Assembly: GCA_943736015.1 (NCBI GenBank)
Contig: OX031065.1
Span: 16,521,427-16,585,426, forward strand
Source: Tridacna crocea
Taxonomy: Eukaryota > Mollusca > Bivalvia > Cardiida > Cardiidae
Reading direction: 5' to 3'
DNA: 64,000 nt
The notes beneath the pieces were generated by a model. It saw nothing but the letters and a program-made list of their open reading frames with translations. It made no database searches and had not been told where the DNA came from. Below, piece by piece: positions 2,791 to 33,600 of this stretch (positions are counted from its first letter, which is position 1; every line of letters begins with the position of its first letter). Made by a program: the position numbers and the translations under genes.

Positions 2791-3448
2791 ATAGCATTTA
2801 AAATAATCCAACCCTGTTCAGTGTTTATACCAAGGAATAGGCTAGCAATTTTGTCAGGGTCAAAAGGTCATAAAATAGTCTTTTTTGGTTTCATCAGAAA
2901 TAACACAACATATTTCTGGGTGATGAAAAAGAAACCATGGAGTCAAAAACACAAGAAACACGCTCTGTACCAAACACTGCGATCACTGGCAAGAGAGGTA
3001 TGGAGTTGGCACCTTGATAAACAAATCCTGGTCATAGTTTACCATTTGGTTCATGTAACACCCTTACTGACAGTGAGGTTCATATACCTCTTGTGTCAGT
3101 AGTTTGATTGACACAGAGTTGAATGCAGTTCTGGGAATAAGTGAATTGTTAAAGTAAGGTGAAATGATATACAGCAGAAATGATCGTAGACACAAAGTCT
3201 TTACATTTATTTGTATAATTTACATGTTGGCTGAAAGCCAGCACAGCTTATGTCATGTCTACAGTTATTCTGTTCATAGGTATGAAGAAATTAAAGCTTC
3301 AAATATGCGACTGTGTCAGAAAGTAGCCAGTAGGTAGCGTACACTTTTTTTGTGCAGTGCGGGCAGATATTATAAGGAAATTTGGTTCCAGACACTGGGC
3401 ACCTTATCATATATTCTCAACATAAATAATCTTGGCCTATCTTGGTAC
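2790..3448 (+). repeat. First, diverged array monomer
   Basis: Shares with later C monomers the segment from TTTCATCAGAAATAACACAA through GCTCTGTACCAAACACTGC (about 2890-2980), the 130-bp core at 2995, and the CTTGGCCTATCTTGGTA end at about 3430-3447. There the hAT-like insertion begins. Confidence 0.8.
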
Positions 3449-5840: not shown

Positions 5841-6701
5841 GCATTTGTAGACCACCCCTCTTCTCTTCCCCCCTTCCACCACATCTCCTTTAGATCTCTA
5901 TTTTCTTTTTTTTCTTTCCACTCGTGAACCGAATTTTAGCTTCAACTCATTGTTTTATTCAGAGATTTGTGTTGATTCACCGTTTAAATTCATTATTAGA
6001 GATCAGAAGATAGTTTGAAGTCCCTCTGATCTAACAATGCCATGCTATTAATAGAAGTATCAAGGGTTTTCACATTTTTTGGCGATTTATTTTTTTCGCA
6101 ACAGTAATTTTTGGAGAAGTATTACTACATGATTTGACATCAATTAGTCAGTTTAAATAGCTGGTAACTTAAAAATTTGTCACTTTACACTAGATAAGAG
6201 GATTGACACCTTGATTACGTTGTCATAAATGACTTGCCAGCTCCATTATCATCCGCATGCCCTTCGCATTTTAAATACTGATCATGTTTAACCCATATTT
6301 CTGCCGGATGCATGCAAGCTAGGCTATATGAAGCTCCACAAGATAATTTCATGGGTCAGATTCACATTTAGGCAGATATTTTTCATCGTCAAAGAAAGGT
6401 CATTTCCAGTTTCAAAAAAACATGCTCAGGGATCAAATGAGAAGCATGCCGAGTTGTCAATTTTTCTCAAGACATCCATGGACAAAGAATTCCTTCTCAT
6501 TTTTTCGGCCAATTTTTCTGTTTTATCAAAGATTGTGATTAATAATAGTCACAAAACCAATTACTAAAAACAAGAAATCAAGTTTTGGCACGAAGCGGGT
6601 TCATGAACCGATAACAATCAATTCCGGGATTTCTCAATTATTGGAATCAGAACCCAAAACCAACTGAATTTCTATTATAGTTGATCATCTGCCCACCACT
6701 A
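5841..6701 (+). repeat. hAT-like end repeated inverted at 26669-27535
   Basis: AAGCATTTGTAGACC, GAATTTTAGCTTCAACTCAT and GGGATTTCTCAATTATTGG are reverse complements, with scattered differences, of blocks at 27510, 27440 and 26745. The two copies face opposite ways on either side of most of the tandem array, about 20.5 kb apart. Confidence 0.8.
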
Positions 6702-6707
6702 CATACA

Positions 6708-8540
6708 TTGGTATATATTTCAAAAAGCACTTAGAATAAACAGGCTGCACATGTTTAGAGTGGGCTGACAAATCAAAGTTAGTAAAGTTATTCTCTACCT
6801 AGTTATTTACTATTTACAGAGCTTCAGATGTATGGTTATCAGGAAAGAGCCAGAAGTCAGTAGTTAGTTATCTATAATGCTATTCTTTTTCAGCAGTACT
6901 GCAGATATTCTAAAATAATTTTGTTTCTGACAATGGGCAATATATTCTTACCTCGGAATATAAATGAAGATAGCATACGAAATCTCTCCCTGCATAAACC
7001 AACCTTATTTTGCCCGTTAGTTTTTACGTCAATGTCGTGGTGTCCATTATAAACTATTTTGTCCCTTAGTTTTCATTACACCGTCATGGTGTGCATTAAA
7101 AACTATTCTTTCAATTGAAATAGTGTTTTTTTGTATCTACAGAAATGACACAAACAACAAATTTCATTGTGTCGAAAAAGAAATCAAGTCAAAAATGCAA
7201 GAAACACGCTCTGTACCAAACACTGCATTCAGTGGCATGAGAGTGTATGTTTCAAAAAGCACCTAGAACAAACAGGCTGCACATGTTTAGACTGCCCCGA
7301 CAAATCGAAGTTAGTATACTTATTCTGACCTAGTTATTTACCAGTAAAGAGAGCTTCAAATGTATGACTGTCAGAAAAGAGCCAGAAGTCAGCAGTAAGT
7401 TATCTATAATGCTTTTTTTTTTCTGCAGTGAGGGCAGATTTTCTACAAAATCTCTGTTATTGACAATTTCATCTCAGTACCAAGCACTGCACTAAGTGGC
7501 ATGAGAGGTATGGAGTGGGCACTTTGATAAACAAATCCTGGTCATAGTTTTACCATTGGGTTCATGTAACACCCTTACCGACAGTTAGGTGTTCCATACC
7601 TCTTGTGTCAATAGTTTGATTGGCATAGAGTTGAATGCAGGTCTGTGAATAAGTGAACTGTTAATCTAGGGTGAGAAAATGTTCAGCAGAAATAATCTAC
7701 ATAAAGTCTTTACATTTATTTGTGTAATTAACATGTTGGCTGAAAGCCAGCAGAGCCTATGTCATGGTGTGGCTTCCTTCATCTGTCCATCTATTCATAA
7801 GTGTTTTTCGTATTGACGCGATAAAACGGGCCAACAAATTGACCTATCTACAGGTATTCTGTTCCCAGATATGAAGTTATTAGAGCTTCAAATGTGTGGC
7901 TATGTCAGAAAGTAGCCAGTAGATAGCACTCCTTCCTCAGTAATGTTTTTCTTTTTTATTTTGTGCAGTGCAGGCAGATATTCTAAGGAAATTCGGTTTC
8001 AGACACTGGGCACCTTATATACCCTCAATATAAATAATCCTAGCCTATCTTGGTTTATATTTCAAAAAGCACCTAGAATAAAAAGGCTGCATATATGTAA
8101 AGAGTATGCAGACAAGTCAAAATTGGTATACTTATTCTGTACCAAGTTATTTACCAGTAAACAGAGCTTCAAATGTATGACTGTCAGAAAAGAGGTAGTA
8201 GGCAGCAGTAAGTTACTCTGTAATCCGTTATCTTTTTCTGCAGTATGGGCAGATATTCTAAAAACTTTCCATTTCTGATAATGGGCAATGTATCATAACC
8301 TCTGAAAATAAATAATCACAGGGTATGAAATCTTATCTCTTTGCATAAACAAACTTTTTTTTGCTCTTGACTTTTCATTACAAGGTTGTGGTGTGCATTA
8401 AAAACTATTCTTATAATTGAAATAGTATTTTTTGATTTCTTCAGAAATGACACAAATGACAAACTTCAGTCTGTTTGAAAAGAAATCATGGAGTCAAAAA
8501 TGCAAGAAGCAAGCTCTGTACCAAACACTGCCTTCAGTTG
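6708..8540 (+). repeat. Diverged array monomers with an internal deletion
   Basis: Array sequence resumes after the hAT-like insert. Near 7243 the order jumps directly from GCATGAGAG to TGTATGTTTCAAAAAGC, skipping the core and about half a monomer. The next full core is at 7505. Around 7440 and 8225 the repeated TCTGCAG then GGGCAGAT motif is visible. Confidence 0.7.
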
Positions 8541-9335
8541 CATGAATGAATGAATTTATGGTGTCTTACGGCGCATTGACATCTAAGGTCATTTAGCATG
8601 CAATAAAGAAGTAATGAAAGAAAAGGATAGGATGTAAGAATGTAAGTCATAAGTATAATTTTGATGAAAGATGTGTTCGGAAATAATGCTATAATGAAGA
8701 TAAAATAAATATGGAGTCAGAAAAAAAATAGTCTAAACATGAATAAAAGAGATAAAAAAGTATCACAATTTCCTGTAAGGTCAAATTTCCTTGAGAAAAG
8801 CAATGTCCCTGAATAGATCGACATCCTGTCTGGTATGCCTTGATCCGTCATTGGTGACAGTTTTGCTGGAATTTATCTGTATTTCATAAAACTTATCTAT
8901 TTGAATATTTGATACTGTAAACAGCTATGTCCCAGAATAGATCAACAACCTTTCTGATATGTCTTGATCCCTCATTGCTGACAGTTTTGCTGCAACATAT
9001 TTGTATTTCGTAAAACTAATGTATTTGAATAATTAATACTGAAAAGCAATGTCCCTGAATGGATCAACAATCTTGTCTGGTATGCCTTGATCTGTCATTG
9101 GTGACAGTTTCGCTGGAATTTATCTGTATTTCATAAAACTGATCTATTTGAATATTTAATAATGTTAACAGCTATGTCCCTCAATAGATCTACAACCTTT
9201 CTGGTATGTCTTGTTCCGTCATTGGTGACAGTTTTGCTTGAACATATCAATTGGTATCTTCAATCATATTTAATACTGTGAACAGTATCTAGATGATATT
9301 TTCAAACATACAGAACTTGTATTCTCGAATCGTTT
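8541..9335. repeat. Insertion in the array: LINE-tail-like block plus four ~124-bp units
   Basis: It starts with ATGAATGAATGAATTTATGG and TTACGGCGCATTGACATC, similar to the LINE tail at 4437. Then GTCCCTGAATAGATC-type units recur near 8805, 8930, 9051 and 9177, each followed by GACAGTTTTGCTG and ATTTGAATA. The array resumes with TTTAGTGGCATAAGAGG at about 9334. No coding frame is seen. Confidence 0.65.
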
Positions 9336-9855
9336 AGTGGCATAAGAGGTATGGAGTGGGCATTTTGATAAACAAAACCTGGTCATAGTTTACCTTTGGG
9401 TTCATGTAACGCCCTTACTGAAAGTGAGGTGTTCCATACCTCTTGTGTCAATAGTTTGATTGGCATATAGTAGAATGCAGGCCTCGGAATAAGTGAACTG
9501 ATAATGTAAGGTGAGAAAATGTTCATCAGAAATGATCTACACAAAGTCTTTACATCTGTTTGTATAATTCACTTGTTTGCTGAAAGCCAGCAGAGCTTAT
9601 ATCATAACATGGTTTCCTTTGTCTGTCCATCTGTTCGTTAGTATTTTTCTTATGAACACCATAAACTCTGTCATAAAATGCACCTTTCTATAGCTGTTAT
9701 TCAGTTCCAATGTGTGATTTCTGTCAGAAAGTGGCCAGTAGGTAGCACTTCTTCCTCAGTAAGGTTTTTCTTTTTGTTTGTGCAGTGTGGGCAGATATTC
9801 CAAGAAAATTTGGTTTCGTACATTGGGCGCATTATCATAATACTCTCAATATATA

Positions 9856-10745
9856 CCGTAAAACGCCGTGTATACCACGCAGGCATGTATAACACGCAGG
9901 CCTTTTTCAGCATCAGATCCGAGGAAAAAAGGTTGTTCGGATGTACAACACGCATAAAAATTGACCAAAATATCGTAACGTGAAGCTTAGGTCGCCGTCT
10001 TGAAAAATTGTAAATGGCGATACTTTATCAAAGGGAAATAACCATTTTTAATCAAAGTGGAAATGGTAATGATTCGATGTGTACTCGGGGGATTACAAAA
10101 ACATGCCAGCTTATGACATTTGCAAATTCACACATTGAACTGACGACCATATTGTAGTTAATCTCCGATTTTCTCACCTCGATCGACAAATGTGACAGGT
10201 GTGAAATAAACATAGATCTATACGATGTAAATCACGGTTTTTGTATAAAGTAGCGATAAATATATCTATTTTTAAATAATTTCTTTCTTCCTGAATCATT
10301 ATTTTACTCTTTAATAATTGTTCAATTTTAGCTATTGACAAAGAATAAAAAAAATATGAGACGAATCAGACGATAACAGTTAATCAGTATTTATCATTCC
10401 GGGGTACGTTCGCCATTGCCAAAATGACTGATATAATCTGGAAATCACGAATCCTAATCGACAAATTAAGAATGTACATTTTAACAAAATTAAAACATAA
10501 CGTTTTTTTTTTAAATGGGTAAAAGTTGAAATGGGATGATGACGACAGTTAAGGCTGTGATGAGAGAACTGTGCCGTTTTGTACCCCCCCCCACACACAC
10601 ACACACACACTTTGAACAGGCATACGACCGACTTTCAAGGAGGAGAAAAACATGGTTTTGCCTATTGTAGTGTATAACACGCAGTCCCCAGTTTAAGATT
10701 ATTCAGAGCTGAAAAAATGTGCGTGTTATACACACCAAAACACGG
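9856..10745. mobile_element. 890-bp DNA transposon with TA target duplication
   Basis: Compared with uninterrupted C monomers (CAATATATAATCTTGGCC at about 17792), this block is inserted with TA on both sides (9854-9855 and 10746-10747). It starts CCGTAAAACGCCGTGTATAC, and the complement of its end reads CCGTGTTTTGGTGTGTATAA, so the ends are imperfect terminal inverted repeats. Both ends also carry a subterminal TAACACGCAG. The TA duplication and inverted ends are those of Tc1/mariner-type elements. I see no transposase, so it is non-autonomous. An AC run lies at about 10588-10610. Confidence 0.85.
10583..10610 (+). repeat. C-run followed by (CA)n microsatellite
   Basis: About eight C residues lead into a CACACA run of roughly ten units, inside the TA-flanked element. 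Confidence 0.9.
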
Positions 10746-11023
10746 TAATCTTGGCCTATCTTGTTATATGTGTCAAAAGGTATCTAGAATGAACAGGATG
10801 CATACATTAAGAGTGTGCCAACAAATTCAAGGTGGTATTGTTATCCTGCACCCAGTTATTTACTAGTAAACACAGCTTCAAATGTATGACGTCAGAAAAG
10901 AGCCAGAAGTCAGCAGTAAGTTATCTATAATGCTTGTCTTTTTCTGCAGTGAGCGCAGATATTCTACAAAATCTGTTTCTGACAATTTTATCTCAGTACC
11001 AAACACTGCATTCAGTGGCATGA

Positions 11024-14000
11024 GAAGTATGGAGTGGGCACTTTGATAAACAAATCCTGGTCATAGTTTACCATTGGGCTCATGTAACGCACTTACCGAC
11101 AGTTAGGTGTTCCATACTTCTTATGTCAATAGTTTGATTGGCATAGAGTTGAATGCAGGTCTGGGAATAAGTGAACTGTTCATGTAAGGTGAGAAAATGC
11201 TCAGCAGAAATGATCTACACAAAGTCTTTACATTTATTTTTATAATTCACATGTCGGCTAAAAGCCAGCAAAGCTTATGTCATGGCACGGTTTCTTTAGT
11301 CTGTCCACCTGTTTGTTAGTGTTCTTCTTTTTTATGAAGTAATGCATGTCAATAAATTCACATTTCTACAGCTGTTATTCTGTTCCTAGGTATGAAGTAA
11401 TCTGAGCTTCAAATGTGTGACATTGTCAGAAAGTAGCAAGTAGGTAGCACTCCTTTTTTCAGTAATGTTTTTCTTTTTTCTTTCGTGCAGTGCGGGCAGA
11501 TAATCTAAGGAAATCTGGTTTCAGACACTGGGCGCATTTTCATATACTCTCAATACAAAAACTTTTTAATGATCTTAGCACATCTTGATGTATATTTCAA
11601 AAAGCGCCTAGAACAAACAGGCTGCACATGTTTAGATTGCCCCGACAAATCAAAGTTGGTATAGTTATTCTGATCTAGTTATTTACCAGTAAAGAGAGCT
11701 TCAAATGTATGACTTTCAGAAGAGAGATAGAAGTCGGCAGCAAGTTCCATATCATGTTTTTTTTCTCTGCAGTACAGGCAGATATTCTACAAAAATTCTT
11801 GTTTCTGACAATTTCATCCCAGTACCAAATTTATACTACATTAAGTGGCATGAGAGGTATTGAGTGGGCACTTTGATAAACAAATCCTGGTCATAGTTTA
11901 CCATTGGGTTCATGTAACACCCTTACCGACAGTGAGGTGTTCCATACCTCTTGTGTCAATAGTTTGATTGGCATGTAGTTGAATGCAGGTTTGGGAATAA
12001 GTGAACTGTTTATGTAAGGTGAGAAAATGTTCAGCAGAAATGTTCTTCAAACAGTCTTCACATATCTTTGTATAATTCGCATGTTGGCTGAAAGCCAGCA
12101 GAACTTATGTCATGGCACGGTTTCTTTCGTTTGTCCATTGTGTTTGTTAGTGTTTTTCTTATTTACAAAATAAAGCATATCAATAAATTCACCTTTCTTC
12201 AGTTATTATGTTCTTAGGTATGAAGTTATCAGAGCTTCCAATGTGTGACTGTATCAGAAAGTGGCCAGCAGGTAGCACTCTTTCCTGAATAATGTTTTTC
12301 TTTTTTTCTGGGCTGTGGTGGCAGATATTCTTAGGAAATTAGGTTTCAGACACTGGGTGCATTATCACATACTCTCAATACAAATGATCTTGGCCTATCT
12401 TGGTATATTTTTCAAAAAGTATCTAGAATGAACAGGCTGCACACATTAAGAGTGTGCCAACAAATTCAAGGTGGTATTGTTATCCTGCTCAAAGTTTCAA
12501 ATGTATGACTTCAGAAAAGAGCCAGAAGTCAGCAGTAAGTTATCTATAATGCTTTTCTTTTTCTGCAGTGAGGGCAAATTTTCTACAAAATCTTTTTTTC
12601 TGAATTTTTCATCTCAGTACCAAACACTGCATGAAGTGGCATGAGAGGTATGGAGTGGGCACTTTGATAAACAAATCCTGGTCATAGTTTACCATTGGGT
12701 TCATGTAACACCCTTACCGACAGTGAGGTGTTCCATACCTCTAGTGTCAATAATTTGATTGGCATAGAGTTGAATGCAGGTCTGGGAATAAGTGAACTGT
12801 TCATGTAAGGTGAGAAAATGCTCAGCAGAAATGATCTACACGAAGTCTTTACATTTATTTTTATAATTCTCATGTTGGCTTAAAGCAAGCAAGGCTATGT
12901 CATGGCACGTTTTCATTAGTCTGTCCATCTGTTTGGTGGTGTTGTACTTGTTCATGCAGTAATGCATGTCAATAAATTCACCTTTCTACTGCTGTTATTC
13001 TGTTCCTAGGTATGAAGTAATCTGAGCTTCAAATGTGTGACATTGTCAGAAAGTAGTAAGTAGGTAGCACTCCTTTTTTCAGTAATGTATTTCTCTTTTC
13101 TTTCATGCAGTGCGGGCAGATATTCTAAGGAAATCTGGTTTCAGACACTGGGCGCATTTTCATATACTCTCAATACAAAATTTTTTTAATGATCTTGGCA
13201 CATCTTGGTGTATGTTTCAAAAAGCACCTATAACAAACAGGCTGCACATGTTTAGATTGCCCCAACAAATCAAAGTTGGTATAGTTATTCTGATCTAGTT
13301 ATTTACCAGTAAAGAGAGCTTCAAATGTATGACTTTCTGAAGAGAGCCAGAAGTCGGCAGCAAGTTACCTATAATGCTTTTTTTTCTCTGCAGTACAGGC
13401 AGATATTCTACAAAAATTATGTTTCTGACAATTTCATCTCAGTACCAAACACAACATCAAGTGGCATGAGAGGTATGGAGTGGGCACTTTGATAAACAAA
13501 TCCTGGTCATAGTTTACCATTGGGTTCATGTAACACCCTTACCGACAGTGAGGTGTTCCATACCTCTTGTGTCAATAGTTTGATTGGCATATAGTTGTAT
13601 GCAGGTTTGGGAATAAGTGAACTGTTTATGTAAGGTGAGAAAATGTTCAGCAGAAATGATCCTCAAACAGTCTTCACATATTTTTGAATAATTTGCATGT
13701 TGGCTGAAATCCAGCAGAACTTATGTTATGGCATGGTTTCTTTCGTTTGTCCATGTGTTTGTTAGTGTTTTTCTTATTTACAAAATAAAGCGTATCAATA
13801 AATTCACCTTTCTACAGTTATTATGTTCCTAGGTATGAAGTTATCAGAGCTTGCAATGAGTGACTGTGTCAGAAAGGGGCCAGCAGGTAGCACTCTTTCC
13901 TAAATAATGTTTTTCTTTTTTCTGGGCTGTGGTTGCAGATATTCTTAGGAAATTAGGTTTCAGACACTGGGTGCATTATCATATACTCTCAATACAAATG

Positions 14001-17000
14001 ATCTTGGCCCATCTTGGTATAATTTTCAAAAAGTATCTAGAATGAACAGGCTGCACACATTAAGAGTGTGCCAACAAATTCAAGGTGGAATTGTTATCCT
14101 GTGTCCAGTTAATTACTAGTAAACAAAGTTTCAAATGTATGACTTCAGGAAAGAGCCAGAAGTCAGCAGTAAGTTATCTATAATGCTTTTCTTTTTCTGC
14201 AGTGAGGGCAGATTTTCTACAAAATCTTTGTTTCTGAATTTTTCATCTCAGTACCAACACTGCATTAAGTGGCATGAGAGGTATGGAGTGGGCACTTTGA
14301 TAAACAAATCCTGGTCATAGTTTACCATTGGGTTCATGTAACACCCTTGCAGACAGTGAGGTGTTCCATACCTCTTGTGTCAATAATTTGATTGGCATAG
14401 AGTTGAATGCAGGTCTGGGAATAAGTGAACTGTTCATGTAAGGTGAGAAAATGCTCAGCAGAAATGATCTACACAAAGTCTTTACATTTATTTTTATAAT
14501 TCACATGTTGGCTAAAAGCCAGCAAAGCTTATGTCATGGCACGGTTTCTTTAGTCTGTCCATCTGTTTGTTAGTGCTCTACTTATTCATGCAGTAATGCA
14601 TGTCAATAAATTCACATTTCTACAGCTGTTATTCTGTTCCTAGGTATGAAGTAATCTGAGCTTCAAATGTGTGACATTGTCAGAAAGTAGCAAGTAGGTA
14701 GCACTCCTTTTTTCAGTAATGTTTTTCTTTTTTCTTTCGTGCAGTGCGGGCAGATAATCTAAGGAAATCTGGTTTCAGACACTGGGCGCATTTTCATATA
14801 CTCTCAATACAAAAACTTTTTAATGATCTTGGCACATCTTGATGTATGTTTCAAAAAGCGCCTAGAACAGGCTGCACATGTTTAGATTGCCCCAACAAAT
14901 CAAAGTTGGTATAGTTATTCTGATCTAGTTATTTACCAGTAAAGAGAGCTTCAAATGTATGACTTTCAGAAGAGAGATAGAAGTCGGCAGCAAGTTCCCT
15001 ATAATGCTTTTTTTTCTCTGCAGTACAGGCAGATATTCTACAAAAAATCTTGTTTCTGACAATTTCATCCCAGTACCAAATTTATACTACATTAAGTGGC
15101 ATGAGAGGTATTGAGTGGGCACTTTGATAAACAAATCCTGGTCATAGTTTACCATTGGGTTCATGTAACACCCTTACCGACAGTGAGGTGTTCCATACAT
15201 CTTGTGTCAATAGTTTGATTGGCATGTAGTTGAATGCAGGTTTGGGAATAAGTGAACTGTTTATGTAAGGTGAGAAAATGTTCAGCAGAAATGTTCTTCA
15301 AACAGTCTTCACATATCTTTGTATAATTCGCATGTTGGCTGAAAGCCAGTAGAACTTATGTCATGGCACGGTTTCTTTCATTTGTCCATGTGTTTGTTAG
15401 TGTTTTTCTTATTTACAAAATAAAGCGTATCAATAAATTCACCTTTCTACATTTATTATGTTCTTAGGTATGAAGTTATCAGAGCTTCCAATGTGTGACC
15501 GTGTCAGAAAGAGGCCAGCAGGTAGCACTCTTTCCTAAATAATGTTTTTCTTTTTTATTCTGGGCTGTGGTGGCAGATATTCTTAGGAAATTAGGTTTCA
15601 GACACTGGGTGCATTATCACATACTCTCAATACAAGTGATCTTGGCCTATCTTGGTATAATTTTCAAAAAGTAACTAGAATGAACAGGCTGCACACATTA
15701 AGAGTGTGCCAACAAATTCAAGGTGGTATTGTTATCCTGCTCCCAGTTAATTACTAGTAAAAAAAGTTTCAAATGTATGACTTCAGAAAAGAGCAAGAAG
15801 TCAGCAGTAAATTATATATAATGCTTTTCTTTTTCTGCAGTGAGGGCAGATTTTCTACAAAATCTTTGTTTCTGAATTTTTCTCAGTACCAAACACTGCA
15901 TTAAGTGGCATGAGAGTTATGGAGTGGGCACTTTGATAAACGAATCCTGGTCATAGTTTACCATTGGGTTCATGTAACGCCCTTACCGACAGTGAGGTGT
16001 TCCATACCTCTTGTGTCAATAATTTGATTGGCATAGAGTTGAATGCAGGTCTGGGAATAAGTGAACTGTTCATGTAAGGTGAGAAAATGCTCGGCAAAAA
16101 TGATCTACACAAAGTCTTTACATTTATTTTTATAATTCTCATGTTGGCTAAAAGCCAGCAAAGCTTATGTCATGGCACGGTTTCTTTAGTCTGTCAATCT
16201 GTTTGTTAGTGTTCTACTTATTCATGCAGTAATGCATGTCAATAAATTCACCTTTCTACAGCTGTTATTCTGTTCCTAGGTATGAAGTAATCTGAGCTTC
16301 ACATGTGTGACATTGTCAGAAAGTAGCAAGTAGGTAGCACTCCTTTTTTCAGTAATGTTTTTCTTTTTTCTTTCGTACAGTGCGGGCAGATATTCTAAGG
16401 AAATCTGGTTTCAGACACTGGGCGCATTTTCATATACTCTCAATACAAAAATTTTTTTAATTATCTTGGCACATCTTGGTGCATGTTTCAAAAAGCACCT
16501 AGAACAAACAGGCTGCACATGTTTAGATTGCCCCGACAAATCAAAGTTGGTATAGTTATTCTGATCTAGTTATGTACCAGTAAAGAGAGCTTCAAATGTA
16601 TGACTTTCTGAAGAGAGCCAGAAGTCGGCAGCAAGTTACCTATAATGCTTTTTTTTCTCTGCAGTACAGGCAGATATTCTACAAAAATTGTGTTTCTGAC
16701 AATTTCATCTCAGTACCAAACACTACATTAAGTGGCATGAGAGGTATGGAGTGGGCACTTTGATAAACAAATCCTGGTCATAGTTTACCATTGGGTTCGT
16801 GTAACACCCTTACTGACAGTGAGGTGTTCCATACCTCTTGTGTCAATAGTTTGATTGGCATGTAGTTGAATGCAGGTTTGGGAATAAGTGAACCGTTCAT
16901 GTAAGGTGAGAAAATGTTCAGTAGAATCGATCTTCAAACAGTCTTCACGTATCTTTGTATAATTCACATGTTGGCTGAAAGCCAAGAGAACTTATGTCAT

Positions 17001-17240
17001 GGCACAGTTTTCTTCGTTTATCCATGTGTTTGTTAGTGTTTTTCTTATTTACGCAATAAAGCGTATCAATAAATTCACCTTTCTACAGTTATGATGTTCT
17101 TAGGTATGAAGTTATCAGAGCTTGCAATGTGTGACTGTGTCAGAAAGTGGCCAGCAGGTAGCACTCTTTCCTAAATAATGTTTTTCTTTTTTTCTGGGCT
17201 GTGGTGGCAGATATTTTTAGGAAATTAGGTTTCTGACAAA
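11024..17240 (+). repeat. (AB)4 block: two copies of a 3.25-kb ABAB tetramer
   Basis: Monomers alternate A and B with cores at 11024, 11854, 12645, 13470, 14278, 15105, 15914 and 16741. Diagnostic variants recur every 3.25 kb rather than every 1.63 kb. TTTATACTACATTAAGTGG with GGTATTGAGTGG is found only at 11854 and 15105 in this block. AAGCGCCTAGAAC is found near 11605 and 14858, while the other two A units have AAGCACCT. AGAGATAGAAGTCGG is near 11727 and 14974, while AGAGCCAGAAGTCGG is near 13342 and 16614. The block is therefore a duplicated tetramer. Confidence 0.8.
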
Positions 17241-20200
17241 TGGAGTCAAAAACAAGAAAAATGCTCTGTACCAAACACTGAATTCAGTTGTATGAGAGGT
17301 ATGGAGTGGGCACTTTGATAAACAAACCCTGGTCACAGTTTACCATTGGGTTCATGTAACACCCTTTACTGACAGTGAGGTGTTCCATACCTCTTGTGTC
17401 AATAGTTTGATTGGCATATACTTGAATGCAGGTCTGGGAATAAGTGAACTGATAATGTAAGGTGAGAAAATGTTCAGCAGAAATGATCTACACAAAGTCT
17501 TTACATTTGTTTGTATAATTCACTTGTTTGCTGAAAGCCAGCAGAGCTTGTATCATAATATGGTTTCCTTTGTCTGTCCATCTGTTTGTTAGTATTTTCC
17601 TTATGAACACCATAAAGTCTGTCAATAAATGCACCTTTCTGTAGCTGTTATTCTGTTTCAATGTTAGCCGTGTCAGAAAGGGGCCAGTAGGTAGCACTAC
17701 TTCCTCAGTAATGTTTTTCTTTTTGTTTGTGCAGTGTGGGCAGATATTCCAAGAAAATTTGGTTTCGTATACTTGACGCATTATCATATACTGTCAATAT
17801 ATAATCTTGGCCTATCTTGGTATACCGCAATTTGCTTAAATTTTGGGACAGTAAAAAATAATTAATTTTTTTCGTGTCCCAAAACTATGGTCTACAAAAA
17901 ATAATTATTTTGTAAGCTGTCCCAAAACTTGTGGTCAAACAAGACTACCTGTCATACTGAAAGTCACTCGCCGCTAACCCGTCGAATATTGCCGACGTTG
18001 AAATATTGGAACGTCACTGATGTCAGGTTTGCAGGGTTATATATTTTTAGACAGATTGGAATATCACCGATCAATTTGAGCACTAAGAGTTTAAAACTAC
18101 ACTTTTTCTCATTATTTTTGTTGATTATTAACTTGTCACTCATTATTGTCTGCGTCTTTGGATCGCGCTGAAGATGTTATTTTGCGTTGCGTAGATAAAT
18201 TCACAACATATCTTACCTCCTTACATGTACGTGAGGTGACGTTAATTCCACTCTGACAAGTACCTACTTGGACCGATCTCAAATTTGATTGGTTTGTCGA
18301 TCTTCGATCGATAAACCTTGGGTAAAACTGTGTACCTTGAAATTCTATTTATAGACATTAAACTCGATTGACCATGAATTACACGTGTGTCAATTCTGTC
18401 AACTTCGGATGTACACACGTTATGGATCTTGGATAGAAGTTTATCACACCCTTTTTACACTTAAGTCGGATTTCTGCTTGGTTTAGGGTTTAAATTAGAC
18501 TGTCAGGTGATCGTTTTTTTTGTCTTGAATCAGGTAACTCCCATTGAAATCATGAGGGTTGGAAAGCATGCTTACGACGGTACGTGTGGAGAAATATAAA
18601 AACTACGCGATTTCAAGTCGAAATAAATATTTGCAAACAAACGTTTTCAAATGGATTGACAGATTTTCTTTTTCTCTAAATAGCTATTCACTGTCCCAAT
18701 TCTTTGGAACAAAAGAATACCGATCTGGTTTTGTAATTTTTAGTATGTCCCAAATCTTTGGGTCATGAAAAATAATTATTTTCGCGATTTTTGATGGTGT
18801 CCCAATTTTTTGGGTGTCCCAAAACATACGCAAATTACGGTATGTTTCAAAAAGTACCATATCTAGAATGAACAGGCTGCACAAGTTTATTAAGAGTGCG
18901 CCAACAAATTCAAGGTGGTATTGTTATCCTGCACCCAGTTATTTACTAGTAAACAAAGTTTCAAATGTAGGACTTCAGAAAAGAGCCAGAAGTCAACAGT
19001 AAGTTATCCACAATGCTTTTCTTTTTCTGCAGTGAGGGCAGATATTCTACAAAATCTGTTTCTGACAATTTCATCTCAGTACCAAACACTGCATTCAGTG
19101 GCATGAGAGGTATGGAGTGAGCACTCTGATAAACAAATCCTGGTCATAGTTTACCATTGGGTTCATGTAACACCCTTGCAGACAGTGAGGTGTTCCATAC
19201 CTCTTGTGTCAATAATTTGATTGGCATATAGTTGAATGCAAGTTTGGGAAAAAGTGAACTGATAATGCAAGGTGAGAAAATGCTCAGCAGAAATGATCTA
19301 CACAAAGTCTTTATCTCATGTTGGCTAAAAGCCAGCAAAGCTTATGTCATGGCACGGTTTCTTTAGTCTGTCAATCTTTTTGTTAGAATTTTTCTTATTG
19401 ATGCAGTAATGCATGTCAATAAATTCACCTTTCTTCAGCTGTTTTTCTGTTCCTAGGTATGAAGTAATCTGAGCTTCAAATGTGTGACATTGTCAGAAAG
19501 TAGCAAGTAGGTAGCACTCCTTTTTTCAGTAATGTTTTTCTTTTTTCTTTCATGAAGTGCGGGCAGATATTCTTAGGAAACCTGGTTTCAGACACTGGGC
19601 GCATTTTCATATACTCTCAATACAAAATGATCTTGGCACATCTTGGTGTATGTTTCAAAAAGCACCTAGAACAAACAGGCTGCACATGTTTAGATTGCCC
19701 GACAAATCAAAGTTGGTATAGTTATTCTGATCTAGTTATTTACCAGTAAAGAGACCTTCAAATGTATGACTGTCAGAAGAGAGCTAGAAGTCAGCAGCAA
19801 GTTACCTATAATGCTTTTCTTTCTCTGCAGTACAGGCAGATATTCTACAAAATTTCTGTTTCTGACAATTTCATCTCAGTACCATACACTACATTAAGTG
19901 GCATGAGAGGTATGGAGTGGGCACTTTGATAAAGAAATCCTGGTCAAAGTTTACCATAGGGTTCATGTAACACCCTTACCGACAGTGAGGTGTTCCATAC
20001 CTCTTGTGTCAATAGTTTGATTGGCAAATAGTTGAATGCAGGTTTGGGAATAAGTGAAATGTTCATGTAAGGTGAGAAAATGTTCAGCAGAAATGATCTT
20101 TAAACAGTCTTCACAGATGTTTGTATAACTCGCATGTTGGCTGAAAGCCAGCAGAGCTTATGTCATGGCACGGTTTCTTTCGTTTGTCAATGTGATTGTT

Positions 20201-23200
20201 AGTGTTTTTCTTATTTACACAATAAAGCGTATCAATAAATTCACCTTTCTACAGTTATTATGTTCTTAGGTATGAAGTTAACAGAGCTTCCAATGTGTAA
20301 CTGTGTCAGAAAGTGGCCAGCAGGTAGCACTCTTTCCTAAATAATGTTTTTCTTTTTTCTGGGCTGTGGGGGCAGATATTCTTAAGAAATAAGGTTTCAG
20401 ACACTGGGTGCATTATCACATACTCTTAATACAAATGATCTTGGCCTATCTTGGTATATTTTTCAAGAGGCACCTAGAATGAACAGGCTGCACATGTTTG
20501 GAGTGTACTGAGAAATTGAAGTTAATATACTTATTCTGTACCTAGTTATTTACCAGTAAACAGAGCTCCAAATGTATGACTGTCAGAAATGAGCCAAAAG
20601 TCAGCAGTAACTTATCTGTAATGCTTTTTTGTTTCTGTCAATGGGCAATGTATCATTACCTCGGAATATAAATACAAATTGCGTACAAAATCTTCTCTCT
20701 CTGAATAAATGAATCTTATTCTACCCCTTAGTTTTTATTAAAACATCATGGTGTGCATTAAAAAACACTTGTTTTGTTTTTTTATGCAAATAGTCTTTCT
20801 TGATTTCATCTGAAATGACACAAACGACAAATTTCAGTGAGTCGGAAAGAAAAAATGGAGTCAAAACACATGAAACATGCTCTGTACCAAACACTGCATT
20901 CAGTTGCATGAGAGGTATGGAGTTGGCACTCTGATAAACAAATCCTGGTCACAGTTTACCATTGGGTTCATGTAACACCCTTACTGACAGTGAGGTGTTC
21001 CATACCTCTTGTGTCAATAGTTTGATTGGCATATACTTGAATGCAGGTCTGGGAATAAGTGAACTGATAATATAAGGTGAGGAAATGTGCAGCAGAAATG
21101 ATCTACACAAAGTCTTTACATCTGTTTGTATAATTCACCTGTTGGCTGAAAGCAGGCAGAGCTTATATCATAATATGGTTTCCTTTGTCTGTCCATCTGT
21201 TTGTTAGTATTTTTCTTATGAACACCATAAAGTCTGTCAATAAATGCACCTTTCTATAGCTGTTATTCTGTTCCAATATTAGCTGTGTCAGAAAGTGGCC
21301 AGTAGGTAGCAGTACTTCTTCAGTAATATTTTTCTTTTTGTTTGTGCAGTGTGGGCAGATATTCCAAGAAAATTTGGTTTCGTATACTTGGCGCATTATC
21401 ATATACTCGTAATATTTAATCTTGGCCTTCCTTGCTATATGTTTCAAAAAGTATCTAGAATGTACAGGCTGCACACATTAAGAGTGTGCCAACAAATTCA
21501 AGGTGGTATTGTTATCCTCCTCCCAGTTATTTACTAGTAAACAAAGTTTCAAATGTAGGACTTCAGAACAGAGCCAGAAGTCAGCAGTAAGTTATTAATA
21601 ATGCTTTTCTTTTTCTGCAGTGAGGGCAGATTTTCTACAAAATCTGTTTCTGACAATTTCATCTTAGTACCAAACACTGCATTCAGTGGCATGAGAGGTA
21701 TGGAGTGAGCACTCTGATAAACACATCCTGGTCATAGTTTACCATTGGGTTCATGTAACACCCTTGCAGACAGTGAGGTGTTCCATACCTCTTGTGTCAA
21801 TAATTTGATTTGGCATATAGTTGAATGCAGGTCTGGGAATAAGTGAACTGATAATGCAAGGTGAGAAAATACTCAGCAGAAATGATCTACACAAAGTCTT
21901 TACATTTATTTTTATAATTCTCATGTTGGCTAAAAGCCAGCAAAGCTTATGTCATTGCACGGTTTCTTTAGTCTGTCAATCCGTTTGTTAGAATTTTTCT
22001 TATTTATGCAGTAATGCATGTCAATAAATTCACCTTTCTACAGCTGTTATTCTGTTCCTAGGTATGAAGTAATCTGAGCTTCAAATGTGTGACATTGTCA
22101 GAAAGTAGCTAGTAGGTAGCACTCCTTTTTTCAGTAATGTTTTTCTTTTTTCTTTCATGAAGTGCGGGCAGATATTCTAAGGAAATCTGGTTTCAGACAC
22201 TGGGCGCATTTTCATATACTCTCAATACAAAATGATCTGGGCACATCTTGGTGTATGTTTCAAAAACTACCTAGAACAGGCTGCAGATGTTTAGATTGCC
22301 CCGACAAATCAAAGTTGGTATAGTTATTCTGATCTAGTTATTTACCAGTAAAGAGAGCTTCAAATGTATGACTGTCAGAAGAGAGCTAGAAGTCAGCAGC
22401 AAGTTACCTATGATGCTTTTCTTTCGCTGCAGTACAGGCAGATATTCTACAAAAATTATGTTTCTGACAATTTCATCTCAGCACCATACACTACATTAAG
22501 TGGCATGAGAGGTATGGAGTGGGCACTTTGATAAAGAAATCCTGGTCAAAGTTTACCATAGGGTTCATGTAACACCCTTACCGACAGTGAGGTGTTCCAT
22601 ACCTCTTGTGTCAATAGTTTGATTGGCATATAGTTGAATGCAGGTTTGGGAATAAGTGAACTATTCATGTAAGGTGAGAAAATGTTCAGCAGAAATGATC
22701 TTTAAACAGTCTTCACATATGTTTGTATAACTCGCATGTTGGCTGAAAGCCAGCAGAACTTATGTCATGGCACGGTTTCTTTCCTTTGTCAATGTGTTTG
22801 TTAGTGTTTTTCTTATTTACACAATAAAGCATGTCAATAAATTTACCTTTCTACAGTTATAATATTCTTAGGTATGAAGTTATCAGAGTTTCAAACGTGT
22901 GGCTGTGTCAGAAAGTGGCCAGTAGGTAGCACTCTTTCCTAAATAATGTTTTTCCTTTTTTCTGGGCTGTGGGGTCAGATATTCTTAAGAAATAAGGTTT
23001 CAGACACTGGGTGCATTATCACATACTCTTAATACAAATGATCTTGGCCTATCTTGGTATATTTTTCAAGAGGCACCTAGAATGAACAGGCTGCACATGT
23101 TTGGAGTGTACTGAGAAATTGAAGTTAATATACTTATTCTGTACCTAGTTATTTACCAGTAAACAGAGCTTCAAATGTATGACTGTCAGAAAAGAGCCAA

Positions 23201-25925
23201 AAGTCAGCAGTAACTTATCTGTAATGCTTTTTTGTTTCTGTCAATGGGCAATGTATCATTACCTCGGAATATAAATACAAATTGCGTACAAAATCTTCAT
23301 TCTCTGAATAAATGAATCTTATTCTACCCCTTAGTTTTTATTAAAACATCATGGTGTGCATTAAAAAACATTTGTTTTGTTTTTTTATGCAAATTGTCTT
23401 TCTTGATTTCATCTGAAATGACACAAATGACAAATTTCAGAGTGTCGGAAAGAAAAAAATGGGAGTCAAAACACAAGAAACATGCTCTGTACCAAACACT
23501 GCATTCAGTTGCATGAGAGGTATGGAGTGGGCACTCTGATAAACAAATCCTGGTCACAGTTTACCATTGGGTTCATGTAACACCCTTACTGACAGTGAGG
23601 TGTTCCATACCTCTTGTGTCAATAGTTTGATTGGCATACTTGAATGCAGGTCTGGGAATAAGTGAACTGATAATATAAGGTGAAGAAATGTGCAGCAGAA
23701 ATGATCTACACAGTCTTTACATCTGTTTGTATAATTCACTTGTTGGCTGAAAGCAGGCAGAGCTTATATCATAACATGGTTTCCTTTGTCTGTCCATCTG
23801 TTTCTTAGTATTTTTCTTATGAACACCATAAAGTCTGTCAATAAATGCACCATTCTATAGCTGTCATTCTGTTCCAATGTTAGCTGTGTCAGAAAGTGGC
23901 CAGTAGGTAGCACTACTTCCTCAGTAATGTTTTTCTTTTTGTTTGTGCAGTGTGGGCAGATATTCCAAGAAAATTTGGTTTCGTATACTTGGCACATTAT
24001 CATATACTCTCAAAATTTAATCTTGGCCTTCCTTGCTATATGTTTCAAAAAGTATCTAGAATGAACAGGCTGCACACATTAAGAGTGTGCCAACAAATTC
24101 AAGGTGGTATTGTTATCCTGCTCCCAGTTATTTACTAGTAAACAAAGTTTCAAATGTAGGACTTCAGAAAAGAGCCAGAAGTCAGCAGTAAGTTATTTAT
24201 AATGCTTTTCTTTTTCTGCAGTGAGGGCAGACTTTCTACAAAATCTGTTTCATCTTAGTACCAAACACTGCATTCAGTGGCATGAGAGGTATGGAGTGAG
24301 CACTCTGATAAACAAATCCTGGTCATAGTTTACCATTGGGTTCATGTAACACCCTTGCAGACAGTGAGGTGTTCCATACCTCTTGTGTCAATGATTTGAT
24401 TGGCATATAGTTGAATGCAGGTCTGGGAATAAGTGAACTGATAATGCAAGGTGAGAAAATGCTCAGCTTGAATGATCTACACAAAGTCTTTACATTTATT
24501 TTTAAAATTCTCATGTTGGCTAATTTTAAGCCAGCAAAGCTTATGTCATGGCACGGTTTCTTTAGTCTGTTAATCTGTTTGTTAGAATTTTTCTTATTTA
24601 TGCAGTAATGCATGTCAATAAATTCACCTTTCTACAGCTGTTATTCTGTTCTTAGGTATGAAGTAATCTGAGCTTCAAATGTGTGACATTGTCAGAAAGT
24701 AGCAAGTAGGTAGCACTCCTTTTTTCAGTAATGTTTTTCTTTTTTCTTTCATGCAGTGTGGGCATATATTCTAAGGAAATCTGGTTTCAGACACTGGGCG
24801 CATTTTCATATACTCTCAATACAAAATGATCTGGGCACATCTTGGTGTATGTTTCAAAAACTACCTAGAACAAACAGGCTGCACATGTTTAGATTGCCCC
24901 GACAAATCAAAGTTGGTATAGTTATTCTGACCTAGTTATTTACCAGTAAAGAGAGCTTCAAATGTATGACTGTCAGAAAAGAGCCAGAAGTCAGCAGTAA
25001 GTTACCTATAATGCTTTTCTTTCTCTGCAGTACAGGCAGATATTCTACAAAAATTCTGTTTCTGACAATTTCATCTCAGTACCATACACTACATTAAGTG
25101 GCATGAGAGGTATTGAGTGGGCACTTTGATAAAGAAATCCTGGTCAAAGTTTACCATAGGGTTCATGTAACACCCTTACCGACAGTGAGGTGTTCCATAC
25201 CTCTGGTGTCAATAGTTTGATTGGCATAGAGTTGAATGCAGGTCTGGGAAGAAGTGAACTATTCATGTAAGGTGAGAAAATGTTCAGCAGAAATGATCTA
25301 CAAACAGTCTTCACATATGTTTGTATAATTCACATGTTGGCTGAAAGACAGCAGAACTTATGTCATGGCACAGTTTCTTTCGTTTGTCAATGTGTTTGTT
25401 AGTGTTTTTCTTATTTACGCAATAAAGCATGTCAATAAATTTACCTTTCTACAGTTATTATCTTCTTAGGTATGAAGTTATCAGAGTTTCAAACGTGTGG
25501 CTGTGTCAGAAAGTGGCCAGTAGATAGCACTCTTTCCTAAATAATGTTTTTCCTTTTTTCTGGGCTGTGGGGGCAGGTATTTAAAGGAAATTAGGTTTCA
25601 GAATTACCACATACTCTCTATACAAATGATCTTGGCCTATCTTGGTATATTTTTCAAGAGGCACCTAGAATGAACAGGCTGGACATGTTTGGAGTGTACT
25701 GAGAAATTGAAGTTAGTATACTTATTCTGTACCTAGTCATTTACCAGTAAACAGAGCTTCAAATGTATGACTGTCAGAAAAGAGCCAAAAGTCAGCAGGA
25801 AGTTATCTGTAATGCTTTTTCGTTTCAGACAAAGGGCAATGTATCATTACCTTGGAATATAAATACTTATTGCATACAAAATCTTCTCTCTCTGCATAAA
25901 CAAATCTTATTCTACCCCTTAGTTT
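17241..25925 (+). repeat. Three CAB trimers of about 2.6 kb
   Basis: C cores lie at 17296, 20912 and 23517, each followed by an A and then a B. The trimer period is 2605 bp between the last two C cores, and 3616 bp for the first because of the 1016-bp insertion. Between B and C there is an extra ~200-bp segment (TTTCTGTCAATGGGCAATG through GCTCTGTACCAAACACTGC). The copies near 20620 and 23225 are almost identical over that segment. The first C core is only 555 bp after the preceding B, so the extra segment and more are missing there. Confidence 0.8.
17825..18840. mobile_element. 1016-bp DNA transposon with TA target duplication
   Basis: It is inserted in a C monomer at CTTGGTA|TA|TGTTTC, with TA on both sides (17823-17824 and 18841-18842). 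The left end is CCGCAATTTGCTTAAATTTT and the complement of the right end is CCGTAATTTGCGTATGTTTT, both followed by GGGACA. GTCCCAAA recurs several times in both subterminal regions (about 17876, 17920, 18746, 18807, 18823), often beside AAAAATAATTATTTT. It has Tc1/mariner-type structure without a visible transposase. It is a different family from the 9856 element, though both start CCG. Confidence 0.85.
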
Positions 25926-26258
25926 TTAGCTTACCTGAGCACAAAGTGCTCAAGGTGAGCCATTGTGATCGATCAAATTCCATCAACCATCTTTCCATCC
26001 GTCTGCTCTCATGCGGGGATACCCCTGATGATAGACATAGGTAATTTCAGACTTGTGGTGATATTTCGAAATTGTGTGGTGCACCTCACAAGAGACATCA
26101 AAATTTACACAGATTTGGTTATAAATTTTAAGCTCATCTGTGAGAGACAAAATCTGGAAACTCACAAATCACGGCCAAACGGACATGGCCGCTGTTTTCG
26201 GCCAAGTTTACACATTTTCTTTTAGGCAAGTCAGAAGACTGCACTAAAAATAGATTGG
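25926..26258 (-). repeat. Truncated CTCACCTGAG-family repeat
   Basis: Starts TTTAGCTTACCTGAGCAC, then AAAGTGCTCAAGGTGAGCC, the end signature of the dispersed family. It sits directly at the right end of the tandem array, as the 2516-2790 copy sits at the left end in the other orientation. Confidence 0.65.
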
Positions 26259-26668: not shown

Positions 26669-27535
26669 TAGTGGTGGGCCGATGATCAACTATAGTCGAA
26701 AGTCAGTTGGTTTTGGCTTCCGATTTTGATAATCGATTGAGAAATCCCGGAATCGATTGTAGTCAGTTGCTAACCTGGCTTGGTGCAAAAACTTGAATTC
26801 TGGTTTTCAGCGCTTGGTTTCGTGATTCTTATTAATCACAATCTTGGATTAAACATAGTGGCTAACAAACACGAAAATTGGCTGAAAAATGAGAAACAAA
26901 TCTTTGTCCATGAATGTCTTGACAAAAGTTGAGAACTCGGCAAGCTTCCCTGAGCCCTGGTTTTGACATTTGGAAATTTGAAATGACTGGTCATTGATGG
27001 TGAAAGATATCTGCCTAAATGTCAGTCTGAGGCATGAAATTATCGTCTAGAACTTCATATAACCTAGTTTGCATGCATCTGGCGTAGATATGGGTTAAAC
27101 ACAATCGGTATAAAATGCGAAGGACACCCCGATGATAATGAAGCTGGCGAGTCATTTATGACAGAGTAAGGAAGTGTTATTCCTCTTATCTAGTGTAAAG
27201 TGACAGGTTTTTAAGTTACTTGCTATTTAAACTGACTAAGCGATCTCAAATCATGTAGTAATACTTCTCCAGAAAGTAACTGTCAAGAAAAAATAGATCG
27301 CCAAAAAAGCGCGAAAACCCATGACACTACAATGAGCAGCGTGGCGTCGTCCGATCAGAAGGAGTTCAAACTATCTTCTTATCTTTAATAATGAATTTTA
27401 AAAGTGAATTCACACAAATTTCTGAATAAAGCAATAAGTGGAAGCTAAAATTCAGTTCATGAGTGGAAATAATGTTGTTTTATGAAATGAAAATAAAGGG
27501 GGGGGGGGGGGAGGAGAGGTCGTCTGCAAATGTTT
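26669..27535 (-). mobile_element. hAT-like end, inverted partner of 5841-6701
   Basis: Starts TAGTGGTGGGCCGATGATC and matches the reverse complement of 5841-6701 throughout. A run of about 12 G residues lies near 27498-27510, where the other copy has a C-rich stretch. The opposite terminus is not visible downstream. Confidence 0.75.
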
Positions 27536-29700: not shown

Positions 29701-31116
29701 GAACATTTTACACTTTGTTTTTGAGTCCAAAGAAATAACAGACATTTCCAAAAGTTGATGAAAGACTTTAAAAATGTTTATTTCCATTAAAGGTGGCCCT
29801 TCAGATTTTGGGACGAAAATTTTACAAAAATGCAAAAAAATCATCCTTATACTCCCAAGGCCTTTTAATTTTCACTCATAGTAGTTGAAAACCTTCCGAC
29901 AACACAAGAAATTAGAGAGTTACTACGGCCCAGGTTGACACCAACGGGAGACACATTCTATTTTTAGCTGATCAGTTCGCTCATTTACTTACAGGAATAC
30001 ACAGAAGAAGCTTCAAACATAGCGTCCGAAGAAGACATTATGTTTGTTATGATAGGGAATTTAAGCGTTATGAGTCATGTGCCAGTCACTTGACGTTCCC
30101 ACAATGCTTTATTGATTTTTGGCGCGAATTCTAAAAATAGCTTAAGAGGCTACGTAGCCTTTTAAGGGAATACCATCAAAAGAAAAAAAAATGTAATTCT
30201 ATGAATCTTAATCATTGATTGTTTGTATTATTTTTTCATATGAATTTGAGTGATATATATATTTTTTAATTTAGTGAGATGTAAAAATTCTAAATACCCA
30301 CCTTTAAAGGAAAATGCGTAGTGTCATGAACAGATTTATCCATATTAGAACTATCATGTGCCCAAAAAAAGAACCTTTACTAATAGTTTTCATGTTTATT
30401 CCTACAGAAATAGGTATATGAGAACATGATATGATATCACTCATACGAAAACAGATAGTTGTCAAAGAGTTCATTTCTTTTTTCTGCATTGTTCATATTT
30501 GTATTTGCAAAAATTACTGATATACAGGGATTTTTTTTTAATTATATCATAAATTACATAATAAAGTATTGAAACAAGCACAGTTCAGTACAAATTTCAA
30601 GATAATAGACAGATTTGCCTTTGTCATATATTCATGTAGAGTCCGTAACCAAACTTAAAGCTTTTTCGTTTTCAAAATTTGAATTGATATAGACAGAGTC
30701 TGATAAAACTTTTTTATTTCTGTATGTTGATTATAAGTTAAACTTCAAGTTTTGTGTAATAACAGTGTCTAAAGATGAGAACTGTATTTTTGAGCAGAGT
30801 TGAAACATGGCAATCTTTCAGCAGTATTTTTTGCAAGATTTCTTGTAAGGATTATGAGATGTAATTATCATTTTGGGTTGTATTTTTTGTTTTATACCAG
30901 TTAAAAATATGAGGAAATTTGAACTGTGTGACATAAAAAAAAAGAAAAACATAATTTCAAGTATTTTATTGATGTTATATCCCTGTGTAGTGTCCGTAAC
31001 AAGCTCTAGAAGGTCAATTTGTCTGCTAACAAAAAATGTATTTCGTGCGCAGCAATCTACAAGATATTTTGGTTTCTTGAACTTAAAGCATAGTACTAAA
31101 TGAAAAACTATTTCTT
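29700..31116. other. AT-rich spacer upstream of the piggyBac relic
   Basis: Apart from two GTCCGTAACC copies (30637, 30987), nothing is recognised. The short frames have low-complexity composition. Confidence 0.4.
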
Positions 31117-31497
31117 TTGTCAATTAAGGGACCTTCATTTTTCACCCCCAAGTGCAACACTACTGTTCCCTATATTGTGTCTTACCCGATTGCTTTTGTG
31201 CGTCTCAAGCAATTTCTGTGCATCAGGGACGTGGGACGCGCAGCTAGATTATTCTCTGGGAATATTCCGGTTTTAGGTACCGAGTACTGCAAGCTGAACC
31301 CAGAATATTCCGGGTCGAGGGGCTTTCCCAATACCGACTATCCTTGCGTTATCAAATCTACGCCAATCACATTTTATCTTTCACGAAAGCGTCAGGTAGT
31401 AGTCAGGCAACAAGTTAAGCCTCGTTTTGGCCTTTCAAATACTTACTTTCATTGGATACCTAGCGAAAAAGGGGAACCTAATTACACATCATTCAAA

Positions 31498-32640: not shown

Positions 32641-33600
32641 AACAAATGTTGGAATTTTTGTTAGTTTTATTGTTCTTAAAACATAGTTCAGCTGTTTTTT
32701 TACATTTACCTGTTTTTACCTGTAGTTTATCAGGTAATTAGTTACTAAGAAAAGTTTTTTTCATTATAAATGCAAAATTCAACATAATACCTTTACAGTG
32801 GTATATTACGTTACAATATTTCATCAAAACAATCTTTCATATTAAAGCTCATAAATGTAAGACCCATATTTTATGATTTTATAAAAAAGTATTCAGCTCA
32901 CACTATTGGCTCCATGTATTATATATAGCATGACTTGGGTTAATTAAAGTTAATGCTTAATAACCTTTTAATAATAAGATTTATAAAAGGTATGTTTCTT
33001 TATAATATTGCTTTTCCTGACATTTTTTGCCATATCTTATCAAGAATACAATGAATATGGCTGAAATGTATATTTAAAGTTTGCCACATGCTGCTGCCTA
33101 ATGTACGAGGAACAAATACTGACAGACCAAATGGTTTACCCAACCTTTTGCAACTTTAATAGTACTATCTAAAGTTTAAAAAATGGCATTTTAACTTATA
33201 AATATAAAATCCAGATATTTTTAAAACAGGTGTATCTGTTTTGAAAATGGTATACTTTCTGTACTTTTCAATATATATTCTTTGAAATAGTACAAGTAAA
33301 ACAGGTCTCAACAGAAGTTTATTTTTGGACCCAATGTCACACTTTATTTGCACTTGGCCATATGTATTCATAAGCGGTTTGTAAAACGATATTTCTTTGG
33401 CTTTTAGAAATATGATGTAAAGAGGTCAGATCGCAGGAATCTCAAAATCAGGCTCAATTAGCCAAGGTAAGATCCACGTAGTGATCGTAACCTTGGCTCG
33501 CGAAGATGATTTCTATCCCACAACATACCAGTTTACCATAAATATAAACTGTTTTGGACAAATATCTCCTTTTGGTTTCTTCATACACTGCGGATGGCCT
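32641..33600. other. AT-rich sequence, nothing recognised
   Basis: It follows the end of piggyBac homology. I could not identify the missing transposase C-terminus or a piggyBac terminal repeat here. Confidence 0.4.

Follow-up and report, generated by a model that had tools for sequence, protein, structure and literature searches.

Genes for 5S ribosomal RNA (rRNA), small nuclear RNA (snRNA) and spliced-leader RNA combine a short conserved unit with a longer diverging spacer, and they lie in tandem clusters at several loci with a conserved block upstream. Here we describe a tandem array in the bivalve Tridacna crocea, within a 64,000-nucleotide stretch that we call the window (contig OX031065.1 of assembly GCA_943736015.1, which comprises 1,048,827,098 bases in 31 contigs; C10:16521427-16585426 in our numbering). 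The monomers of this array carry a piece of about 125 bp, here termed the kernel, which is conserved far beyond the rest of the monomer and was missed in an earlier note on this DNA. As in multicopy small RNA gene clusters, a short conserved unit with a conserved upstream block is separated by longer, diverging spacer and recurs at several tandem loci; the kernel differs in having no threshold match in Rfam at the loci compared, and is here a putative RNA gene.

The array also has features of higher-order-repeat satellite DNA, namely a set order of monomer classes, block duplication of multimers and a head-to-tail arrangement, but it differs in its small clusters, with about 160 kernel matches in the genome, in its 0.8-1.4-kb monomers and in its long hyperconserved segment. 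Bivalves and other animals are already known to have long monomers and higher-order repeats, according to the cited parts of earlier reports (PMC5874043, PMC8268682, PMC11121367, PMC10218199, PMC3694981): the oyster satellitome includes monomers of 811, 2077 and 3287 bp (PMC8268682), a scallop repeat measures ~726 bp (PMC5874043) and a snail satellite has a length of 1460 bp (cited in PMC11121367). The earlier note had set the monomer apart from centromeric satellites as much longer; beside these mollusc repeats its length is not remarkable. Mollusc long-monomer satellites (oyster CgiSat05 and others; scallop Ac4p1) share with the present array monomers of 0.7-3.3 kb and short arrays on several chromosomes, but a conserved kernel is not among the features described in the cited parts of those reports (PMC8268682, PMC5874043). 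The oyster satellites are mostly tied to Helitrons (PMC8268682), whereas no Helitron part was identified here, where no dedicated library search was made. In nematode satellites a CENP-B-box-like motif likewise survives among diverged repeats in higher-order arrays, but there the motif is short and placed at the junctions between monomers, whereas here about 125 bp with pairing ends are conserved (PMC3694981). Word-based literature searches gave no recognised published description of the kernel family, eukaryote collections not having been compared by sequence, and the kernel patterns have no exact matches in prokaryote and virus collections.

Results

A conserved kernel within the monomer

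Self-comparison and module profiles identify 20 copies of a 269-bp core (K), all on the + strand and spanning 2987-25367. Module E-values reach 8e-98, and a chance origin of the array is therefore excluded. In the monomer classes A and B the modules follow the order T (~229 bp), linker (~30 bp), K (269 bp) and M (~287 bp); class C has an additional block of ~240 bp, P, ahead of K, of which A and B retain the last ~30 bp.

Across 69 P-bearing units (seven of them from the window, some of these with the P end only), conservation rises at −152 to 0.81, from 0.58-0.68 before, reaches its maximum of 0.93-0.97 from −12 to +107, is still 0.90 to +127 and is about 0.8 or less beyond +128. A less conserved block of ~140 bp lies directly upstream of the kernel. 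The kernel set comprises 90 copies, 83 of them distinct over the kernel, and length is also kept, the kernel occupying exactly 122 bp of the core in 71 of 86 rows. Within five other clusters, kernels diverge by 0.048-0.076 and flanking segments by 0.10-0.39, some of the latter figures being inflated by units of unlike make-up. By both the profile and the divergence within clusters, the kernel is a conserved unit bounded against spacers, as a structured RNA gene would be. In the window, class B kernels vary less than their flanks (0.029 versus 0.041-0.078).

Kernel clusters across the genome

Comparison of 1.6 kb of the array with the host genome gave 127 matches (40 of 822 candidates scored); on other contigs, among these 40 scored candidates, the first part of the core matches at mostly ~90% and M at ~70%. 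Two kernel patterns from the first ~125 bp of the core (35 and 29 bases, at most 3 mismatches) occur at 162 and 156 places in the genome, and their reversed controls at 0 and 0. Among the matches listed (100 of 162 and 100 of 156 places), kernels fall on five contigs and nearly all in eight head-to-tail clusters, three on C6 (with outliers near 1.80 and 5.19 Mb), one each on C8, C10 and C12, and two on C13; within each cluster the kernels listed share one orientation. The comparison with 1.6 kb of the array added a match on C3. Outside the window, 22 loci were fetched (20 stretches plus two more).

Of 81 P ends, 76 have a kernel next to them downstream. In the other clusters T followed by P is the usual order, and because the T-then-P unit is the rule there, monomers A and B in the window are best read as probable deletion products lacking most of P. 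The C12 cluster contains two successive stretches of 6,615 bp, 99.4% identical over 6,029 columns, with six and five kernels in units of mostly ~1.43 kb. This higher-order repeat is younger than that of the window, and higher-order growth is a habit of the kernel family, not a peculiarity of the window.

Centromeric satellites form long arrays at centromeres, on most chromosomes, whereas the matches listed form short clusters on five of the 31 contigs, plus the one C3 match. The earlier note had likened the array to the growth of centromeric satellites by repeated unequal exchange; the exchange stands (see below), but the centromeric likeness is unsupported by the matches listed, because the kernel patterns match so few places and those listed form clusters of tens of kb at most.

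Neither do the listed places have the single scattered copies expected of a transposable element, which bears on the proposal that the kernel, bounded by its inverted repeat, is the remnant of a mobile element or a promoter of rearrangement, kept because it seeds duplications. Joints of unlike neighbours do occur at kernel edges (a C12 copy has another sequence upstream, and two kinds of unit have another downstream), and kernels recur at short spacings, for example 116, ~330 and ~439 bp. Furthermore, bivalve satellites are often parts of Helitrons (PMC8268682), and a limpet satellite derives from a short interspersed nuclear element (PMC11121367), according to the cited parts of those reports. 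Yet the kernel places listed (100 of 162 and 100 of 156) are clustered and not strewn genome-wide, and units in different clusters have the same neighbours, P and M, and therefore go back to a single ancestral unit rather than to independent insertions. We regard the mobile origin as quite improbable.

Two of the C6 clusters, L009-L011 (near 1.74-1.77 Mb) and L015-L017 (5.21-5.24 Mb), are apparently inverted copies of each other by module order, which reflects either a large duplication or a matter of assembly. One of these C6 loci also holds, within the kernel cluster, an open frame of 599 codons with a transposase-like look (L011 4752-6548).

Selection and conversion

Something preserves the kernel while unequal exchange builds the arrays. 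When 89 units are compared pair by pair, kernel divergence relative to flank divergence is 0.42-0.56 where the flanks differ by 0.08-0.15 and 0.62-0.69 where they differ by 0.03-0.08. For still closer flanks (below 0.03), pairs outside the window have ratios of 0.94 (21 pairs) and 0.86 (19 pairs), and the 2 pairs within the window have a ratio of 0.44. This trend fits the removal of slightly harmful changes over time, but not that alone. The near-unity ratios of the youngest outside pairs are also congenial to a neutral tandem repeat, in which the clusters would be functionless and recombination or gene conversion would act most on the kernel, spreading one version within and between clusters. 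In the word-based literature searches, higher-order-repeat arrays without known function are common.

A quick tree of 73 P-kernel rows speaks to both sides. The rows from C6, C8 and C13 are intermingled, as such spreading would have it, and exchange or shared ancestry among these clusters is likely; the 7 window rows and the 4 C12 rows each form one group, with support of 88 and 87 in the Shimodaira-Hasegawa-like approximate likelihood ratio test (SH-aLRT), which the neutral repeat does not lead one to expect. Moreover, conversion between clusters should erase cluster-specific differences in the kernel, yet a small, constant set of sites separates window kernels from those of the other clusters in almost every copy. 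Conversion alone also leaves unexplained the conserved upstream block and the single diverged kernels on C3, C12 and C13. We consider the neutral repeat rather unlikely, although selection and kernel-favouring conversion cannot be fully separated.

A putative structured RNA

The reading we favour, while rating it somewhat short of an even chance, is that the clusters are multicopy putative structured RNA genes with a promoter-like upstream block, reshaped by unequal exchange. The folds predicted for the 83 distinct copies share a closing stem of 18 pairs, of which 82 copies make 12 or more and one copy makes none. A three-helix model has 96.0% of cells pairing, with all five pair measures above 500 shuffles and a covariation score above those of slid versions; in an inner-hairpin version 94.4% of cells pair. 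Single changes in the four proposed helices keep wobble pairs 39 times on the + strand and 21 times on the − strand (expected + share 0.45-0.48, p 0.003-0.01), which lends moderate support to an RNA that would be read on the + strand.

The same stem may be viewed as DNA. The kernel would then be a binding site or cruciform element kept in tandem for repeated protein binding (in insulation, replication or chromatin), and no RNA would be made. Conservation is as high in the loop as in the stem, a pattern that a binding site accounts for no less well than an RNA does; the inverted repeat delimits the conserved part; and the cited parts of a report on some nematode satellites describe a CENP-B-box-like motif kept amid diverged sequence (PMC3694981). 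The wobble excess on the + strand is unexpected for such an element, however, and about 125 bp is long for a single binding site. We hold a DNA element to be unlikely.

Returning to the structured RNA genes, a number of results weigh against them. The proposed inner helices, which were picked after folding, appear in 27, 45 and 10 of the 83 predicted folds, and folding z-scores are modest (+ strand, −1.6 to −2.6; − strand, about −1.5). Slid controls match or exceed the number of doubly changed pairs, with 8 against 9 for three helices (slide +3) and 9 against 9 for a four-helix version. In the 20 copies of the window alone the pair statistics are weak, with shuffles reaching the observed values in 11 to 360 of 500 cases; the inner hairpin considered in place of the small helices is broken by two mismatches that are fixed among the window copies; and the closing stem by itself is without strand bias (19:15). 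Class A kernels in the window differ as much as their flanks (0.054 versus 0.051-0.065), as a neutral repeat would also have it. The A and B monomers keep the kernel though they are without most of P, the supposed promoter. Finally, no family of Rfam 15 reaches threshold, either in the window or at the 14 outside loci searched (of 22).

Under relaxed conditions Rfam yielded only weak matches, a single one in the stretch taken from the window (E 3.5) and four in an outside unit (E 0.064-1.9), none of them over a kernel, and ARAGORN found one tRNA-Thr, in the outside locus L020 and away from kernels. A known RNA or tRNA gene was accordingly rejected as the identity of the kernel, there being no threshold match at the loci searched. 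Internal RNA polymerase III boxes, H/ACA or C/D boxes and likeness to Y, vault or 5S RNA were looked for by eye only, with nothing convincing. A microRNA precursor was dropped at a loop of ~75 nt. An array of coding exons was also rejected: the kernel consensus contains stops in each of the six frames, its substitutions carry no codon signal (synonymous fraction 0.19-0.28), and the splice-acceptor-like AG before window kernels is absent in other clusters.

Tiers of repetition

The multi-level tandem repeat described in the earlier note largely stands, but its true extent is longer, with 18 of the 20 cores inside the coordinates given there and the remaining two upstream, at 2987 and 7497. A tree of the 20 cores supports the three monomer classes proposed there (bootstrap/SH-aLRT 97/95 for the 7 rows of A, 99/99 for the 7 of B and 96/93 for the 4 of C), which from 9338 run C A B A B A B A B C A B C A B C A B. 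The AB dimers and CAB trimers also claimed there appear as plain periods in the self-comparison, in which 18841-23340 and 21438-25928 are 95.1% identical over 4529 columns. Monomers are 93.0-97.2% identical within A (7 monomers) and 88.5-97.6% within B (6 of 7 compared), against 83.7-85.9% between A and B. Classes thus recur in a fixed multimer order, as in higher-order-repeat satellites, and multimers are far more alike than monomers, both here and in the 6.6-kb repeat of C12; the tetramer of the window has this property only in part.

For that tetramer, an ABAB unit said to be duplicated at 3.25 kb, 26 columns divide the four AB dimers into two pairs. Dimers 1+3 versus 2+4 are supported by 20 of them, four being adjacent gap columns, and of the six contrary columns three are a gap at the alignment end. 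The support is concentrated at about 11249-12238, and the 3.25-kb relation holds over this part of the length. Of the two pairs that had been cited for it, the first (11854/15105; cores 11846/15097) is indeed close, at a distance of 0.0198 compared with 0.046-0.054 for B pairs 1.63 kb apart, whereas the second (13470/16741; cores 13462/16733), at 0.0525, is no closer than those. Of the sites that divide the copies in this way, 16 of 17 in class B and 4 of 6 in class A agree with the 3.25-kb relation; class A is mixed, and its closest pair is 1.64 kb apart.

The lowest tier, two related halves of ~0.4 kb per monomer, fails as described; what there is instead is one internal duplication of ~150 bp common to M and T (154 consensus columns, 74% identity, score 66, with no more than 16 in any of 40 shuffles). 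Each monomer has a single K, and its relation to M, T or P is not above shuffles. Descent of all modules from one ancestor of ~270 bp is ruled out, only M and T being related.

The nesting of periods (AB, CAB and, in part, ABAB), together with the 6.6-kb higher-order repeat in a second cluster, supports repeated unequal exchange as the way in which the arrays grew.

Features of the window and assembly

Table 1. Array segments, example modules and insertions, with positions in the window
Feature	Positions	Strand
Main array, 18 cores: C, four AB dimers, C, AB, CAB, CAB, partial T-P at end	9338..25929	+
Four AB dimers, ~1.63 kb each; dimers 1 and 3 related at 3.25 kb over part of length	10748..17238	+
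AB-CAB-CAB stretch, ~2.6-kb period	18841..25928	+
Older outlying copies, order T-P-T-K-M-T-P, core 7497	6708..8545	+
Oldest outlying copy, P(end)-K-M, core 2987	2873..3441	+
Example of conserved kernel: first ~125 bp of core K plus ~12 bp preceding; 20 such in window	12625..12760	+
Block P of a class C monomer; in other clusters a promoter-like conserved upstream block	20638..20905	+
Insertion with inverted ends TACCG...CGGTA, TA target; interrupts C copy with core 9338	9854..10747	unassigned
Second insertion, unrelated to first, ends TACCG...CGGTA, TA target; in C copy with core 17288	17823..18842	unassigned

An inverted repeat of ~800 bp, 80% identical and with a GCCCACCACTA end, lies at 5912-6701 and 26669-27472, the end of the left copy adjoining the first T module. 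Its members are read as two insertions and not as the ends of one giant element, since array copies lie outside the left one. At 31087-32741 three neighbouring open pieces, with stops between them, match DDE_Tnp_1_7, a piggyBac-type transposase domain, and a run of open frames at 44722-46801 (+), with no convincing Pfam match, possibly belongs to a mobile-element gene. Other tandem repeats occupy 374-1096, 8799-9248 and 50902-51616, with periods of 156, 124 and 166 bp. A dispersed repeat of ~220 bp occurs in both orientations, 72-92% alike, at 1616-1835, 2088-2308, 37022-37250, 45130-45358, 47744-47972, 48520-48747 and 61106-61529. Elsewhere in the assembly, COX1 lies on the 29,009-bp contig C31 (L031), with TGA read within the frame; should this contig be the entire mitochondrial genome, that genome would be large by animal standards.

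Discussion

In the explanation we favour, the window array would be one of a family of head-to-tail clusters with a full unit T-P-K-M of about 1.0-1.4 kb, which unequal exchange would keep reshaping. Deletion of P in the window, suggested by the longer unit elsewhere, would give the short A and B monomers, from which the AB, CAB and partial ABAB repeats, observed as periods and in trees, would then grow. Purifying selection would presumably restrain the non-coding kernel of ~125 bp and the ~140-bp block upstream, whose conservation is observed. The kernel would specify a small structured RNA from the + strand with its promoter in the upstream block, and the clusters would be multicopy RNA genes with spacers, like those for 5S rRNA or snRNA.

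The conserved stretch, which can fold into a hairpin, may be an undescribed RNA gene family. A more specific version, which we find doubtful, is an undescribed class of multicopy RNA genes whose product would be a ~125-nt RNA with an 18-bp closing stem, made on the + strand from the conserved upstream block; these genes would be multiplied by higher-order unequal exchange, and monomers A and B in the window would represent copies from which that block has been lost.

If the kernel is an RNA gene, T. crocea would have a sizeable non-coding gene family not in Rfam, and gene copies and satellite-like higher-order repeats would be one object. Even if it is not, the family has clusters of differing age within a single genome, and it can therefore be asked cleanly why a short part of a tandem repeat is retained as the remainder drifts.

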